Shown piece by piece: positions 8,665-14,578 of a stretch of DNA of 41,585 nt. A program made the position numbers and the translations under genes. The stretch comes from a virus. The notes under the pieces were generated by a model. The model saw nothing but the letters and a program-made list of their open reading frames with translations, was not told where the DNA came from and ran no database searches. Numbering within the stretch: position 1 is the stretch's first letter; every line of letters begins with the position of its first letter. The stretch spans positions 1 to 41,585 of IMG/VR virus record IMGVR_UViG_3300020156_000053. One strand, given 5' to 3'.

Positions 8665-9048
8665 TCAGTGCTCGCCGGGCGCGGCGGGCGTGGTGGGATC
8701 CGCGGGGGCGATGTCGGCGGAGTGGCGGCGCGGCGAACGCAGCCGCTTCCATTCGCGGTGGTACTGCCGGCGATCGACGAGGATCAGCCCCGTCGGCCGC
8801 CAGGGCCGCGCCAGGCCGTGCGCCCGGCGCCACTTCGTCACGCTGTTCGGCACGACGCCGGCGGACTCGGCGATGCGGCGGCACGAATCGCCGGCGTTGT
8901 GCATCTCCATCGCCTCCGCATGCGTCAGCCGGCCCAGCATGCCGCGGGCGCGACTGCCGGCCTTGAGCTGCGAACGGTGGCAGGAGCGGCGGGTGGTGGC
9001 GGCGTCGTCCCGCGCGAGGACGGCGAGTTCGTGCTGGGTGAAGGTCAC
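8665..9048 (-). CDS. Helix-turn-helix protein, 127 aa
   Basis: The GTG at 9046-9048 overlaps the methyltransferase stop as GTGA. Residues 40-75 read LTHAEAMEMHNAGDSCRRIA then ESAGVVPNSVTKWRRAHGL, a homeodomain-like or resolvase-type HTH. It is followed by a basic tail (YHREWKRLRSPRRHS). It is a likely DNA-binding regulator or a terminase-small-subunit-like protein, but its place in the early operon favours regulation or replication. The assignment beyond HTH is not secure. Confidence 0.55.
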   Translation of the reverse strand: MTFTQHELAVLARDDAATTRRSCHRSQLKAGSRARGMLGRLTHAEAMEMHNAGDSCRRIAESAGVVPNSVTKWRRAHGLARPWRPTGLILVDRRQYHREWKRLRSPRRHSADIAPADPTTPAAPGEH

Positions 9049-11336
9049 GGCGCGGCCTCGCCGACGGCCATGTCGAAGAGCGACGTCTGGCCGCGGTCGA
9101 TCGCCTCGGCCGTGCGCAGGTTGTCGCAGGCCGAACGCCAGTAGGACTCCTTGAGCTCGACGCCGACGAACCGCCGACGCAGGCGGACCGCCTCGTAGCC
9201 CTCAGAGCCGATGCCGGCGAACGGTGACAGGACGAGGTCGCCGGGGTTGGACCAGAGCTTGATCGCGCGCTCGATGACGCCGAGCTGGAGCGGGCAGAGG
9301 TGGCGCTCGTCGTCGGTCTCGCGCGCCTGGCGCACGTTGAGCACGTCGGTCTCGGCGATGCCGTCGCCGTTCGGCGCCCAGTCCTCGGCATACCACACCG
9401 GCCGCGCCCACCGGATCCATTCCTCCTGGCTGATCCAGCCGTCGGCGTTGTCGTACTTCTCGCTGATACCGGCGCGGATCGGCTCGCCGGAATCGCCGTC
9501 CTTACGGAACTGCAGCAGGTAGTCGGCCATCGCCATGTGCATGTGCGACGAGTCGGTCGCGAGCGTCTTGAAGAGCAGGCCGCGATCCTTCGTCCGGATC
9601 GCCTTCACCTGCGGGTTCTTGTCGATGCAGACCTCGCCGTAGTAGCGCCAGCCGGCCCTCTCCATCGTCGCGATGACGGCGCCGCGGAAGTCGCGCATGC
9701 CGATGAAGCCGTCGGTCGTCTTGTGCGCGGCGTACTGCGTCAGATGGACGCAGCAGTGCCGTCCCGGCTTGGTGACGCGCAGCAGCTCCGGGACGAGGAA
9801 CCGGTAGTGCGCGATCATCTCCTCGAGCGACGTCGTGTTGCCGATGTCGTGCGGGCTGTTCGTGTAGGTGTACATGCCCGGGAACGGCGGCGAGAAGACC
9901 GTCAGGCCGACGCTCGCGTCCGCGACGTGGCGAAGCTGCTTCACGCAGTCGCCGAGGTACATAGTCCAGGCGTCACCCGACGCGACCGCCTCGGCGTACG
10001 GCATCTCCTGGCGCACCGCGCTCTCGCTGAGCGAGACCTCGCCGGCCATCTCGCGAACGATGTTGTCCATCATCTCCCTCGCCTGTTGTTCCTTGCGGTT
10101 GATGTTCTCGACGACCACGCCCTCGGCGGTCGATGTGATGACGTGCGCGGTGACGGGCCGCTTCTGCCCGAAGCGCCAGCACCGGCGGACGGCCTGGTAG
10201 AACTGCTCGAACGAGTCCGAGAGCCCGACGAAGACGACGTTGGCGCAGTGCTGCCAGTTCATCCCCATGCCGCAGATCGACGGCTTGGAGACCAGGACGC
10301 GGACGGTGCCGGCCGAGAAGGCCAGCATCCGCGACTCCTTCGCCTCGTTCGAGTCCGTGCCCGTGACCTCGACCGCGCCTGGGATCGCCGCGACGAGCGC
10401 CTCCGACTCGCTGTTGAGGTCGCACCAGACGAGCCACGGCTCCGACGACGAGTTGACCAGCGCGGCCGCCGCGGCGACGCGGTCCGGCAGGCTGTTGCGG
10501 CGCGCCGCTCGCCGCTCATCCAGCGTCAGGGACTCCGGGTTGTCCGAGAGGAGCGACTGCTGCCCGATGCGCTCCCCGGCGGCGACGACGACCTGGCGAA
10601 CGTCGAGCGGAGGCAGGAGGAACGCCCCATCCTCGTAGCCGAGGTCCGACGGCTTGCGCAGCGCGACGGCCCACGACGCGAGCCAGCGGTAGAACGGCCG
10701 CTTGGCGTGGCCCTTGAGGCGCCACTGCGACGTGGAGTTGCCGTCCTGCGTGAAGAAGAGCGCCTTGACCTCCTTCTGCTGCATGACGCCGAGGAACTCG
10801 GCGTGATTGCAGAGCTCGGTCAGGTCGTTCGGCGCCGGCGTCGCGGTGCAGGCGAGGCGGTACGGGACGTGTTCGCCGAAGTCGAGGATCGCGGCCTTCG
10901 TCTTGCCGTCGTACGCCTTGAGGATCGATGACTCGTCCAGGACGAGGCCGGCGAACTCGCCCGGCGAGAAGTGGTGCAGGCGCTCGTAGTTGGCGATGTT
11001 GATGCCAGGGCGGCAGTCGGCCGCGGTGCGACAGACCGTGACCTCGACGCCGAACTTCACCCCCTCGGCGCGCGTCTGCTCGGCGACGGCGAGCGGCGCC
11101 AGGATGAGCACGTCGCCGCCGGTGGTATCGCGGACGAGGCGCGCCCATTCGAGCTGCATCGCCGTCTTGCCCATGCCGGTGTCGGCGAAGATCGCCGCCT
11201 TCCCGCGCCGGCACGCCCACCGGACGATGTCGCGCTGGAAGGGGAACAGGGCGGGGTTGATCCAGGCCGGGTCGCAGGTGAAGCCCGAGGGCTCCGAGGC
11301 GATGCGCTTGGAGGCGAGGAAGGTCTCGTAGCTCAC
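9045..11336 (-). CDS. SNF2/SF2-type helicase fused to DNA methyltransferase, 763 aa
   Basis: The GTG at 11334-11336 has GGAGGTG just upstream and overlaps the rusA-like stop, so I reject the longer frame. The helicase half has Walker A ADTGMGKT (51-58), motif II LDES (133-136), motif III TAT (164-166) and motif VI QAVRRCWRFGQ (381-391), all typical of SNF2-like translocases. The methyltransferase half has SPPF (482-485, the SPPY-type catalytic motif of N4-cytosine/N6-adenine enzymes) and, near 705, the SAM-binding motif SPFAGIGSEG, in the beta-class order. One polypeptide thus joins an ATPase to a DNA methylase. Related fusions occur in phages and in restriction-like systems. No nuclease domain is seen here, so protection of phage DNA is more likely than restriction. 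Confidence 0.85.
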   Translation of the reverse strand: MSYETFLASKRIASEPSGFTCDPAWINPALFPFQRDIVRWACRRGKAAIFADTGMGKTAMQLEWARLVRDTTGGDVLILAPLAVAEQTRAEGVKFGVEVTVCRTAADCRPGINIANYERLHHFSPGEFAGLVLDESSILKAYDGKTKAAILDFGEHVPYRLACTATPAPNDLTELCNHAEFLGVMQQKEVKALFFTQDGNSTSQWRLKGHAKRPFYRWLASWAVALRKPSDLGYEDGAFLLPPLDVRQVVVAAGERIGQQSLLSDNPESLTLDERRAARRNSLPDRVAAAAALVNSSSEPWLVWCDLNSESEALVAAIPGAVEVTGTDSNEAKESRMLAFSAGTVRVLVSKPSICGMGMNWQHCANVVFVGLSDSFEQFYQAVRRCWRFGQKRPVTAHVITSTAEGVVVENINRKEQQAREMMDNIVREMAGEVSLSESAVRQEMPYAEAVASGDAWTMYLGDCVKQLRHVADASVGLTVFSPPFPGMYTYTNSPHDIGNTTSLEEMIAHYRFLVPELLRVTKPGRHCCVHLTQYAAHKTTDGFIGMRDFRGAVIATMERAGWRYYGEVCIDKNPQVKAIRTKDRGLLFKTLATDSSHMHMAMADYLLQFRKDGDSGEPIRAGISEKYDNADGWISQEEWIRWARPVWYAEDWAPNGDGIAETDVLNVRQARETDDERHLCPLQLGVIERAIKLWSNPGDLVLSPFAGIGSEGYEAVRLRRRFVGVELKESYWRSACDNLRTAEAIDRGQTSLFDMAVGEAAP

Positions 11337-11698
11337 GCCGGCACCTCCTGGAGATGGATCCTGGTGCACCTGAGCGCCTTGGGCGCGCGCTGCTGGACGT
11401 ACTCGCACGTCCACCAGCGCGGCGAATCGTCCACGATGTAGCCGAGGCGCTTGAGGCAGTCTGGGATCGGCTTCGCGCCGCCGACGAAGTTGCCGTAGTC
11501 GATGATCCTGTTGCGCAGGCTGAGGATCGTGGCGCGCACCGGTCGCGTCGGCGGGTGGGGCCGAGGACGGAGGTGCACACGCAGCATGAGGAGCCAGGCA
11601 TCGCGCTCGCGCGTGTACGCCAGCCAGTGCGAGTACTGGAAGCGATTTTGCGACGGGACCTCCCGCGCGATCACGACGGTGATGGGTTCGCCGATCAC
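11333..11698 (-). CDS. RusA-like Holliday junction resolvase, 121 aa
   Basis: The GTG at 11696-11698 follows a G-rich site and overlaps the stop of the homing endonuclease gene. The sequence has the RusA layout: an N-terminal strand (ITVVIAREVPSQNRF), then IIDYGNF with D67 and N70, PDCLKRLGYIVDD with D80, D90 and D91, and a basic end. In RusA these acidic residues bind the metal that cleaves four-way junctions. The first Asp pair of the classical RDxDN motif is partly replaced (RIIDYGN). The length is close to that of E. coli RusA. The role is resolution of recombination or replication intermediates before packaging. Its 5' end is duplicated upstream (12216-12263). Confidence 0.75.
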   Translation of the reverse strand: MIGEPITVVIAREVPSQNRFQYSHWLAYTRERDAWLLMLRVHLRPRPHPPTRPVRATILSLRNRIIDYGNFVGGAKPIPDCLKRLGYIVDDSPRWWTCEYVQQRAPKALRCTRIHLQEVPA

Positions 11699-12219
11699 GG
11701 ACGCCCCCCGCGGCAAGCTGCGAACTCGCCGAACTCGCGCTGCTCGGCAGCGATGCGCGCCTCCTTCGCCTCTTCGAACGTCGGATAGGTTCCGACCGTC
11801 CACGTACGGCCAGCCGACGTGATCCTCACGCGATATCCTCCGCGCTCGCGGCGCAGGCCGCGGAATCCGCAGGCGTTGTCGACGCGCGTCCGCTGGTTCC
11901 GAGCATTCTCCCGCGCAGTAGCAAATCGAAGATTGCAACGCCGGTTATTGAGGAAGTCGCCGTCGATGTGGTCCACTATTTGACCACGCTTCGCGCCGAT
12001 GATGACGCGGTGCATGTGAATGAGCCCGCCCTTGCGAGCAGGATCAGCCCGGCGCACGGATCCACTGCCGGCGTACCAGCGATGGCAAGCGATCTCGCCG
12101 TAGATGTCGGCATCCACGAGCGCGTACTTACCGCATTTCAACGGGACCATCCGGGCCCCGACCGGACACTGGTCAAGCACGGCAGGCGGTATGGCCACGA
12201 TTCTCGGACGCGCCTTCAT
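11695..12219 (-). CDS. HNH-AP2 homing endonuclease, 174 aa
   Basis: The ATG at 12217-12219 overlaps the stop of the rusA-like start fragment as ATGA. Residues 65-110 are an HNH_3 core (HMHRVIIG with H70, VDHIDGD with D83/H84, NNRRCNLRFAT, NARNQ). Residues 117-162 are an AP2 DNA-binding domain (GFRGLRRERGGYRVRI, TVGTYPTFEEAKEARIAAEQ). This pairing is typical of free-standing phage homing endonucleases that cut an intron- or insert-less allele and copy themselves in. Its base composition is visibly less GC-rich than the flanking genes, as expected for a mobile gene. It splits the resolvase start from its body. Confidence 0.85.
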   Translation of the reverse strand: MKARPRIVAIPPAVLDQCPVGARMVPLKCGKYALVDADIYGEIACHRWYAGSGSVRRADPARKGGLIHMHRVIIGAKRGQIVDHIDGDFLNNRRCNLRFATARENARNQRTRVDNACGFRGLRRERGGYRVRITSAGRTWTVGTYPTFEEAKEARIAAEQREFGEFAACRGGRP

Positions 12220-12263
12220 GGCCGGACCTCGCGGGCGATCACGATCGTCAACGGGGCGATCAT
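12216..12263 (-). pseudogene. Duplicated start of the RusA-like gene, 15 codons
   Basis: The frame starts at the ATG 12261-12263, coupled as ATGA to the upstream gene, and reads MIAPLTIVIAREVRP then stop. The downstream resolvase begins VIGEPITVVIAREVPSQ. The shared TxVIAREV core and matching DNA (GTGATCGC, CG, GAGGTCC) show they are copies of the same 5' end. The stop codon overlaps the homing endonuclease ATG. I read this as the original rusA start, cut off when the endonuclease element inserted carrying a replacement 5' end. It still serves to couple translation into the endonuclease gene. Confidence 0.65.
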
Positions 12264-12529
12264 GCCGTCGCGTCCTCGGCGTTCAGGTCGATCGACACCT
12301 GCTCCCCAGTCGCCTGGAACTTCCGCGCCGCGGCCATCAGCCGCTCGTGCTCCCGGCGGTGGCGGCACTCGCGCAGGGCGACCTCCGCGGCGGCGCCGGG
12401 CGTCAGCCCCTGCGTCTGGATGTCGTGGGCGAGACCGTCGGCGATCCGGCGCTGGCGGTTCGCCAGCTCGAGCAGGCGCTCGAGATCGCCCGAGCCGCGG
12501 ACGGTGAGGATGCGGGGCGGGGCGGTCAT
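12260..12529 (-). CDS. Hypothetical helical protein, 89 aa
   Basis: The ATG at 12527-12529 is preceded by a G-rich tract and overlaps the nuclease stop. The product starts MTAPPRILTVRGSGDLERLL and continues as two helices (RRIADGLAHDIQTQGL, RECRHRREHERLMAAARKF). No family is recognised. It lies between the RecE-like nuclease and the RusA-like resolvase, so a part in recombination is plausible from position alone. Confidence 0.5.
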   Translation of the reverse strand: MTAPPRILTVRGSGDLERLLELANRQRRIADGLAHDIQTQGLTPGAAAEVALRECRHRREHERLMAAARKFQATGEQVSIDLNAEDATA

Positions 12530-13365
12530 GCGGCCCCCGGGATCTCGCCGAGCACGTCGGGCTCGGCCTGGGGTGACCCATAGTCCCCGGCTGCGATGCC
12601 GGTGAGCGCGCGGTCGACCTCGAGCATGCCGGCGTCGAGCAGCGCCTCGTGGCACTCGATGACGCGGCACTCGAACGGCCAGACGGTCGACTGCACCGCC
12701 CAATAGAAGGGCACGCGCGGCCGGCCGGTGACGCCGACGCGCACGGCGTCGTAGAGCGCGGCCTGGACATGGAGCAGGTAGTCGCGGACCTGCCACTTGA
12801 ACGACCGGATGGGCGAGGCGGTCGTCTTGTAGTCGACGATCCAATCGTCGTGCAGCACGTCGAACCGCGCCTGCACCATGAGGCCGGTATGGGGGTCGCG
12901 CAGTCGGCCCGTCACCTCGGCGCGGCCGCCGGTCATGAGGCGCAGCGCCACCGGGTTCGCGCGGACGCGGTCGGCGAGGAATCGGGCCTTGGCGTCCTCC
13001 GCCGGCGACAGGGCGAGCTTCCCGACGAGGGCGAAGCGGTCGAAGGTCGCTTGCGCCTGCTTCGACCGGGACCGGTAGCCGGCCTCGGTGAAGCACTCCG
13101 GCGGCGCGATGACGCAGCGGGCGCGGTAGTGGTCCTCCCCCTGGAGCAGCAGGTGCACCAGGGTCCCGAGCTCGGTCGCGTCGTTCCCGTGGAACGCGGC
13201 CAGCGGGTGCCGGTCGACGTAGCGCAGGCGGAAGCCGTCGGGGTTCGTGAGCCAGGCGCGGATCTCGGTCGAGCCCCAGGCGCCGCTCCTGCGGTAATCG
13301 GCGTCGGGCTCGTCGAAGATGAGGCCGAGCCGGGGCGCGGCGTCGGCGGAGGCGGCGGCGATCAC
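12526..13365 (-). CDS. PD-(D/E)XK exonuclease, RecE/RecB-type, 279 aa
   Basis: The GTG at 13363-13365 (VIAAASADAAPRLG) overlaps the upstream stop and follows GAGGTG, so I reject the longer upstream frame. Motifs of the RecB/RecE nuclease family are present in order: H71 in LGTLVHLLL, E150 in AEVTG, D169 in ARFDVLHDD, D178-x-K180 in VDYKTT, and Q201..Y205 in HVQAALY. In phages this enzyme degrades the 5' strand to give a single-stranded end for an annealing protein. The candidate partner is two genes upstream (13670-14578). Confidence 0.8.
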   Translation of the reverse strand: MIAAASADAAPRLGLIFDEPDADYRRSGAWGSTEIRAWLTNPDGFRLRYVDRHPLAAFHGNDATELGTLVHLLLQGEDHYRARCVIAPPECFTEAGYRSRSKQAQATFDRFALVGKLALSPAEDAKARFLADRVRANPVALRLMTGGRAEVTGRLRDPHTGLMVQARFDVLHDDWIVDYKTTASPIRSFKWQVRDYLLHVQAALYDAVRVGVTGRPRVPFYWAVQSTVWPFECRVIECHEALLDAGMLEVDRALTGIAAGDYGSPQAEPDVLGEIPGAA

Positions 13366-13673
13366 GACTGCACCTCGCGGCCGCACCATGCGCAGCACGT
13401 CTTGCCGCCCTGGTCCTCGTCGGCGAACGTCTCCCACTCGCGTCCGCACGCCGAGCACTGGTCCTGGTGCTTGCGGTTGACGACGAGGCGCACGTCGTCC
13501 TGGCTGCGGTGGTCGCGGATGAAGGCGTTGAAGTCCTCGACCCGCCGGTCGAGCTCGGCCGCGCGCTTCTCGACGTTCGAGCTGTAGGTGCGGAAGTGCG
13601 CCTCGACCTCGACGTCGACCAGCACCTTCGGTCGCTTGGTGCAGACGCGGGTGGTGGTGGTGGCGTCGCTCAC
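13362..13673 (-). CDS. Zinc-ribbon protein in the recombination module, 103 aa
   Basis: The GTG at 13671-13673 follows AGGAG and overlaps the upstream stop. Residues 1-65 are helical (VDVEVEAHFRTYSSNVEKRA, DRRVEDFNAFIRDH). The C-terminus carries CSACGREW and CAWCGREV pairs, a zinc ribbon. It is inserted between the annealing-type protein and the nuclease, with overlaps at both ends, so it is translated with them. It may be an adaptor or single-strand-binding accessory. That is inference. Confidence 0.55.
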   Translation of the reverse strand: MSDATTTTRVCTKRPKVLVDVEVEAHFRTYSSNVEKRAAELDRRVEDFNAFIRDHRSQDDVRLVVNRKHQDQCSACGREWETFADEDQGGKTCCAWCGREVQS

Positions 13674-14578
13674 TGGATCTCCTGCTGCGCGCCCGGCGCC
13701 GTCGGCGTGGGAGCGGCGCCGCCCTGCGCCCCGGCGAAGCGGTTGGCGCTGGCCTTCGGCTCGGCCGGCTTCTTCGCCTCCATCGCGGCGCGCCAGGTCG
13801 TCTCGCCGTCCTTGATCGCGGCGTGCAGCGCGCGCAGGTCGGCCAGCTCGGCCGGCGACAGCTTGGCGAGGTCGGTGCCCAGGTACGACTTGAGGTCTTC
13901 GACCGAGACGTGCAGCGCCGAGAAGGCATCGATCATCTTCCGTCGCGCCGCATCCGGGTCCGCCTTGTCGCGGTTCCGCTGCGTCTCGACGACCAGGTCC
14001 ATGCACTCGTCGATGAGGTCGCCGGGGATGAGGCGCAGGGCGATCGTGCGGATCGCCTTCGACAGGAGCGCGTTCTTCTTGTTGAGGATGTCGTCCTCGG
14101 TCGCGCGGAGGATGTAGACCTTGTTCCCCTGGCTGTTGGTGCGCTCGCGGATGACCTCGTCGTCGGGTTTCTTGTTCCGGCGCTCGATGGTCTTCTCGAC
14201 GGTGACGCTGGTGGTGTACGGGACGTTCGCCTCGAGGTCCGTCACCGAGACCTGGATGATGCGCTTCTCGTCGTCGTCGTAGGTCGTCGTCTCGTCGATG
14301 ACGATGTTCTTCATGCACCGCACGGCCGCCTCGGCGAAGCGGATCGACGGGCCGGTGACGCCCTTCCCGATCGGCTTGTTGTAGCGCGCGACCTCGGCGA
14401 ACGACGGGCGGCGGCACTCCTTGAGCAGCGCCTCGCGCACGGCGTCCATGTCGCGCGGCCGGGCGAGCGCGACGGTGTAGCGGGCCTCGACCAGCGCCTT
14501 CACCTGGGCGGCGGCGGCGGAAGCGGCGGTCTCGTAGACCTTCGGGAGCTGCGGGTTGGTGACGGCTGGCAGGTTCAT
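13670..14578 (-). CDS. Candidate single-strand annealing recombinase, 302 aa
   Basis: The ATG at 14576-14578 overlaps the previous stop. The core (residues 20-200) has strongly patterned segments: ARYTVALARPRDMDAVREAL, CRRPSFAEVARY, GKGVTGPSIRFAEAAVR, DLEANVPYTTSVTVEKTIER, NSQGNKVY and KAIRTIALRLIPGDLID. The C-terminal 60 residues are disordered (Pro/Ala/Gln). I recall such proteins only as conserved phage proteins beside RecE-like nucleases. Together with the nuclease at 12526-13365, this position suggests a RecT/Erf-like role in pairing strands. The family is not identified from sequence alone. Confidence 0.5.
   Translation of the reverse strand: MNLPAVTNPQLPKVYETAASAAAAQVKALVEARYTVALARPRDMDAVREALLKECRRPSFAEVARYNKPIGKGVTGPSIRFAEAAVRCMKNIVIDETTTYDDDEKRIIQVSVTDLEANVPYTTSVTVEKTIERRNKKPDDEVIRERTNSQGNKVYILRATEDDILNKKNALLSKAIRTIALRLIPGDLIDECMDLVVETQRNRDKADPDAARRKMIDAFSALHVSVEDLKSYLGTDLAKLSPAELADLRALHAAIKDGETTWRAAMEAKKPAEPKASANRFAGAQGGAAPTPTAPGAQQEIQ

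Follow-up and report, generated by a model that had tools for sequence, protein, structure and literature searches.

Record IMGVR_UViG_3300020156_000053, a virus record of 41,585 bases that was analysed as a whole (the window), carries on its minus strand a gene for an HNH endonuclease that lies between a frame of only 15 codons and a gene for a RusA-like Holliday junction resolvase. A first-pass annotation of this DNA had read the short frame and the beginning of the rusA-like gene as two copies of one gene start, separated by the nuclease gene, and the coordinates and peptides that it gave for this arrangement were confirmed. On the minus strand, an exonuclease VIII-like gene is followed by an 89-amino-acid (aa) gene, the short frame, the HNH gene, the rusA-like gene and a helicase-methyltransferase fusion (Table 1). 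Successive reading frames overlap by ATGA or GTGA at all four joints from the upstream gene to the helicase, that is, between upstream gene and short frame, short frame and HNH gene, HNH gene and rusA-like gene, and rusA-like gene and helicase.

Similar gene starts on both sides of the nuclease gene

The short frame (MIAPLTIVIAREVRP, then a stop codon), hereafter called the stub or copy 1, and the start of the rusA-like gene (VIGEPITVVIAREVPSQ) are identical at 30 of 39 aligned bases, with one additional gap of a codon. The likeness begins at both start codons and stops at GAGGTCC; past this point, the stub runs into the ATG of the HNH gene and the rusA-like gene into the codons for P-S-Q-N. 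As a comparison set we used the starts of 1,486 open reading frames (ORFs) of at least 100 aa, of which 169 came from the window and the rest from loci with a G+C content (GC) above 60%, many of these ORFs being likely not real genes. The pair scored 43 at the protein level, the best of the other starts reaching 25, and 32 at the DNA level, where the best of the others reached 28. The stub had been spotted first and its likeness was tested afterwards; the margin at the protein level is large. The earlier reading of two recognisable copies was thus borne out, with a DNA likeness beyond that of every other start in the set. When position is disregarded, this DNA likeness is only moderately striking, because a gapped alignment across the whole window gave the rusA start as the best match outside the stub with a score of 20 and a runner-up of 18. 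A 24-base core of the stub, chosen after the likeness had been seen, also has its best non-self match in the window at the rusA start (20 of 24 bases). Judged from these comparisons, the stub and the rusA 5' end are duplicates of a single gene start.

The differences between the two copies number three, one and five at codon positions 1, 2 and 3, respectively, and both frames are open, which argues that the copies are two alleles diverged while coding rather than a gene start and its decaying stub; nine differences are weak evidence for this. Over the 22 bases that lead up to the joint, copy 2 differs from copy 1 by two silent changes and one I-to-V replacement. Furthermore, the stub joined to the rusA body scored 98.0 bits against the profile of the relatives, the present gene 97.5 bits and the body alone 91.6 bits. 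The stub also lies where a native start would be expected, in an ATGA overlap with the upstream gene as in the neighbouring genes. An uninterrupted gene made of copy 1 and the body, corresponding to the empty site, is therefore plausible, because this construct fits the profile as well as the present gene does.

Table 1. Features of the HNH/rusA locus (window coordinates)
Feature	Position	Strand	Remarks
Upstream gene, 89 aa, function unassigned	12260..12529	-	TGA stop overlaps the ATG that opens the short frame
Copy 1: 15-codon stub, MIAPLTIVIAREVRP and stop; proposed native rusA start	12216..12263	-	Resembles copy 2 over 12263-12225 plus one further C
GAGGT within the stub; likely ribosome-binding site of the HNH gene	12226..12230	-	6 nucleotides ahead of the HNH ATG
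HNH endonuclease gene, 174 aa, AP2-like C-terminal part	11695..12219	-	GC 64.9%; GC at third codon positions (GC3) 0.74
Copy 2: rusA 5' end (proposed rebuilt), GTG start to codon 14, VIGEPITVVIAREV	11657..11698	-	Contains strand 1 (residues 6-10) of the predicted RusA fold
RusA-like Holliday junction resolvase gene, complete, 121 aa, beginning VIGEPITVVIAREVPSQNRF	11333..11698	-	Predicted RusA fold
Helicase-methyltransferase fusion	9045..11336	-	Its GTG overlaps the rusA TGA

The nuclease and the resolvase

The nuclease matches HNH_3 (PF13392; 33.3 bits against a cut-off of 24.8, E value 3.7e-8) and phrog_99 (E value 1.4e-29), and the HNH residues D83, H84, N92 and N96 are invariant among six aligned proteins. 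Pfam AP2 matches four of these six proteins and not that of the window, whose C-terminal part aligns to theirs. Of the HNH-AP2 endonuclease proposed earlier, the HNH part is thus confirmed, while the AP2 part is suggested by the alignment and has no Pfam match of its own. Compared with its flanks, the segment 11695-12219 deviates in composition: its GC, which is below the 71.4% of the window as a whole, ranks at the 2.8th percentile among windows of 520 bases, and its GC3 of 0.74 contrasts with 0.90 in the rusA-like gene, 0.945 in the upstream gene and 0.957 in the helicase. The exonuclease ORF as called, which probably starts too early, has a GC3 of 0.80, nearer the HNH value. By its composition, the HNH gene looks foreign.

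Between the stub and the rusA-like gene nearly all bases belong to the HNH ORF, and the frames are separated by stop codons. A search of positions 9000-14500 against Rfam gave no intron family among the matches at E values up to 5. Because there is no room for a ribozyme, no Rfam intron match, and stop codons close the frames, the insert is neither an intron nor an intein, as the first-pass annotation had maintained. Ribosomes likely bind ahead of the nuclease gene at the GAGGT in the stub. Ahead of the rusA GTG, this simple search was negative, so that translation of the rusA-like gene presumably depends on coupling to the upstream HNH gene. The further proposal that the old start had become a leader coupled to the endonuclease thus holds in so far as the stub can serve as a leader, its expression as such being presumed. 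No promoter or terminator was found.

Single-sequence scans of the rusA-like protein gave no match in Pfam or PHROGs. A profile built with remote viral relatives retrieved E. coli RusA (1q8r) as its first match in the PDB, with an E value of 0.0039 that rose to 0.059 with a slightly smaller alignment. An AlphaFold2 model obtained from a 21-row alignment has a mean predicted local distance difference test (pLDDT) score of 95.2, and the top seven PDB matches in a structure search with this model are all RusA (E values of 1.2e-5 to 1.5e-3, template modeling scores by query of 0.57-0.66). The gene product is RusA by its predicted fold. Strand 1 of this fold is encoded by the duplicated part, and the joint lies directly ahead of the conserved N-terminal P-S-x-N motif, in which S16 and N18 are invariant in 23 of 23 aligned sequences. 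Most relatives with a readable start have a short hydrophobic stretch before S-x-N, so that a RusA protein without copy 2 would be abnormal.

The catalytic residues of E. coli RusA are D70, D72, D91 and K76. In the window protein, D67, K76 and D91 are present, and a glycine, G69 in the sequence DYGN, stands at the place of the second catalytic aspartate (D72 in E. coli RusA). Since glycine replaces the second catalytic acid, the resolvase activity of the protein is not certain, as far as its residues tell. The same glycine (DYGN) occurs in the relatives L004, L040, L036 and L037 and may mark a subfamily.

Elsewhere in the window are integrase, terminase, portal, tape measure and tail genes, which point to a tailed phage that is probably temperate. 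The 89-aa upstream gene has no Pfam or PHROG match. A second HNH-type gene, at 6977-6201, belongs to another family (phrog_16986, phrog_14314) and shows no duplicated flanks (score 20 over a 16-column match). An 877-aa ORF at 31854-34487 matches, in one frame, head maturation protease and major head families (phrog_4523, phrog_133).

Relatives and recurrence of the arrangement

Single-sequence and profile scans for relatives of the rusA-like gene yielded one remote record among phages and none among plasmids; of two scans of the genome contigs, one was negative and the other gave a single remote match. The 36 RusA loci in viral contigs reach at most 40% identity over the best segment, and the best relatives, L004 and L040, are about 34% identical. 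Two degenerate DNA patterns were also searched in the viral contigs: one met a single stretch without RusA in its ORFs and the other had no match. With neighbouring genes as bait, the exonuclease had no match in viral contigs and remote matches in phages, the portal gave remote matches, and the helicase gave many, the best at 65%. None of the 36 records behind the helicase loci was found to hold this RusA family, in a search run without a positive control, and the upstream ORFs of three helicase loci contain no RusA. One helicase-methyltransferase gene (L124:3986-7210) has about 900 extra in-frame bases in its helicase part, with intein-like ends (CFAPDTPI... to ...VHN/S).

The recurrence of duplicated flanks was evaluated by starting from 143 HNH ORFs detected at an E value of 1e-4 and keeping the 97 unique loci that had 100 or more bases on either side. 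Only the window exceeded, in the DNA likeness of its upstream and downstream flanks, the 99th percentile of 3,000 swapped pairs, and four of these pairs (0.13%), some of which come from overlapping loci, reached its score of 32. An earlier survey with 85 usable loci out of 87 had also ranked the window first, none of 1,500 swapped pairs reaching 32. These surveys speak for the rarity of the signature and not for its significance, as about one of 97 loci would be expected above the 99th percentile by chance, and more diverged copies would be missed; the significance rests on the comparison of ORF starts. The translated flank score is uninformative in GC-rich DNA: the window scored 45, in a best match that is not in the true frame, and was surpassed by L251 (68) and L130 (65). 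The locus L130, which had stood out by a high translated match in the earlier survey, was rejected as out of frame and driven by composition, its annotated neighbours showing no real likeness.

HNH_3 genes occur in four of 38 records of RusA loci. In three records (G048, G057 and G073; loci L286, L285 and L288), a Pfam RusA match is followed downstream by an HNH_3 match at a distance of about 400-550 bases, so that such genes may commonly reside near RusA genes. A virus record of 38.5 kilobases (G066; L217, L244-L247) has six HNH_3 matches, which is unusually many.

Proposed origins of the two gene starts

The reading that we prefer, and to which we give about an even chance, is that the repair of a break joined a piece made of the HNH gene and a diverged rusA 5' end onto the resident rusA gene, in a one-sided event of which this is the single case. 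A free-standing homing-type HNH gene would have entered rusA after codon 13, just before the P-S-x-N codons. The uninterrupted resident gene, which would begin like MIAPLTIVIAREV-PSQN, would have been cut near codons 13-14 and then repaired from a phage carrying the HNH gene. The downstream side would have been joined through rusA homology, so that the incoming piece supplied the nuclease gene together with the 5' end from a diverged allele of rusA. On the upstream side, a joint without long homology would have left 13 codons of the resident gene as the stub. The outcome would be a complete hybrid rusA whose new GTG start is coupled to the nuclease stop, the stub now acting as leader and ribosome site of the nuclease. 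Such a one-sided repair would account for the presence of a stub, for the completeness of the gene and for two starts that have diverged. The history put forward in the first-pass annotation, insertion of an element with a substitute 5' end, is supported in part. Moreover, the changes that distinguish copy 2 may shield the carrier from its own nuclease, a natural addition because copy 2 together with the body re-creates an uncut site. One-sided illegitimate repair with microhomology at the joints is described for T4 intron homing (PMC2988022).

Several points weigh against this reading. The phage, plasmid, viral-contig and genome-contig collections yielded neither a close relative with an uninterrupted gene nor a donor nor an empty site; as they gave remote relatives only, we infer the direction and source of the event. 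The signature was found in none of the 96 other HNH loci, so that, within the reach of this survey, the family does not make a habit of it. The rusA body has a GC3 somewhat below that of two neighbours, and the whole gene may be foreign. Finally, the cleavage sites of free-standing T4 nucleases lie hundreds to thousands of bases away from the nuclease gene and not at the joint (PMC2988022).

Replacement of the entire gene would account for the same facts nearly as well, although we regard it as clearly less probable than one-sided repair: a cassette of the HNH gene and a complete foreign rusA would have replaced the old rusA except for 13 codons, the nuclease having made the cut or merely travelled along. 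This would agree with the GC3 of rusA, slightly below both the upstream gene and the helicase, but that value may fall within the spread of the phage's own genes (in a gene list pre-filtered for GC3 above 0.8). The HNH genes found near Pfam RusA genes in G048, G057 and G073 lend it further support; there, however, the HNH gene follows RusA and does not precede it. A bolder reading, which we hold to be unlikely, makes the recoded 5' end a part of the mobile unit itself, that is, a homing gene carrying its own patch, which would restore the resolvase and make the site immune through silent changes.

Both a local slip and tandem paralogues explain less than one-sided repair or whole-gene replacement. 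If the nuclease had been inserted at the gene boundary and a slip during repair had copied the first 13 rusA codons across, with later divergence, a second phage would not be needed and the confinement of the likeness to one short stretch would follow. Yet the copies agree at 30 of 39 bases, their gap is one whole codon in frame and most of their differences are synonymous or conservative, which indicates much constraint for a non-functional stub, and a slip that starts exactly at the start codon is not expected; we consider this decidedly unlikely. An older tandem duplication of rusA, followed by entry of the nuclease into the first gene and loss of most of that gene, would produce the two copies with no need for a new 5' end, an account with no direct evidence in its favour. 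It appears highly improbable, the window containing one RusA match and none of the 41 rus-profile hits forming a tandem pair. That the 15-codon frame is merely an intergenic gap with a chance likeness is next to negligible: partial matches abound in GC-rich coding DNA, as the runner-up of the window-wide alignment illustrates, but not one of the 1,486 ORF starts comes near at the protein level, and at either border the copies match in register.

An intron, an intein or a site at a gene boundary usually keeps a homing gene from doing harm; otherwise the interrupted gene ends up in pieces. The closest precedents for a supplied gene end are mobile ORFs of fungal mitochondria (atp6 of Allomyces macrogynus; atp6, atp9, cox2 and nad3 of Glomus sp.), which replace the 3' ends of genes: the gene continues into a diverged replacement end, its native end being found past the nuclease ORF. 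For atp6 of Glomus, DNA identity between the two ends is 63.5%, compared with 30 of 39 bases at the phage locus, and horizontal transfer is proposed (PMC3630166). As in those ORFs, two copies of a gene end flank a nuclease ORF at the phage locus, which of the two is native being a matter of inference. Unlike them (3' end and C terminus, LAGLIDADG or GIY-YIG nucleases, mitochondria), the phage locus concerns a 5' end with its start codon and an HNH nuclease. In Tremella, predicted introns bring along a host gene fragment at the intron 5' end that resembles the following exon, the foreign part may replace the resident one, and complementary DNA supported one of six as a real intron (PMC7315562). 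The phage locus resembles these in combining a mobile piece with a fragment of the host gene, and differs from them in having no intron and in that the new end is the gene start.

In T4-like phages, mobE in nrdA of Aeh1 and mobA in gene 60 of T4 leave these genes in pieces, and the overlap of start and stop at T4 mobE suggests translational coupling (PMC2988022). As in these cases, a free-standing HNH gene lies within a region of a phage gene that is critical for function; whereas the split genes yield two polypeptides, the downstream gene is here whole again. We found no described case of a phage gene made whole by a supplied start in the open-licence literature searched, and a survey of lactococcal HNH genes (PMC12724721) nowhere uses the terms duplication, RusA, Holliday or start codon. 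The principle thus has precedent outside phages, in fungal mitochondria, and the phage version at the 5' end would rest on one case without close relatives.

If one-sided repair is the true history, a second, supplied start would be a further way for a phage nuclease gene to sit in a gene that stays whole, and homing in phages would be linked to the swapping of gene ends in fungal mitochondria. Were the patch itself to move with the nuclease gene, inserting into a conserved coding site would carry no cost, even without an intron or an intein.

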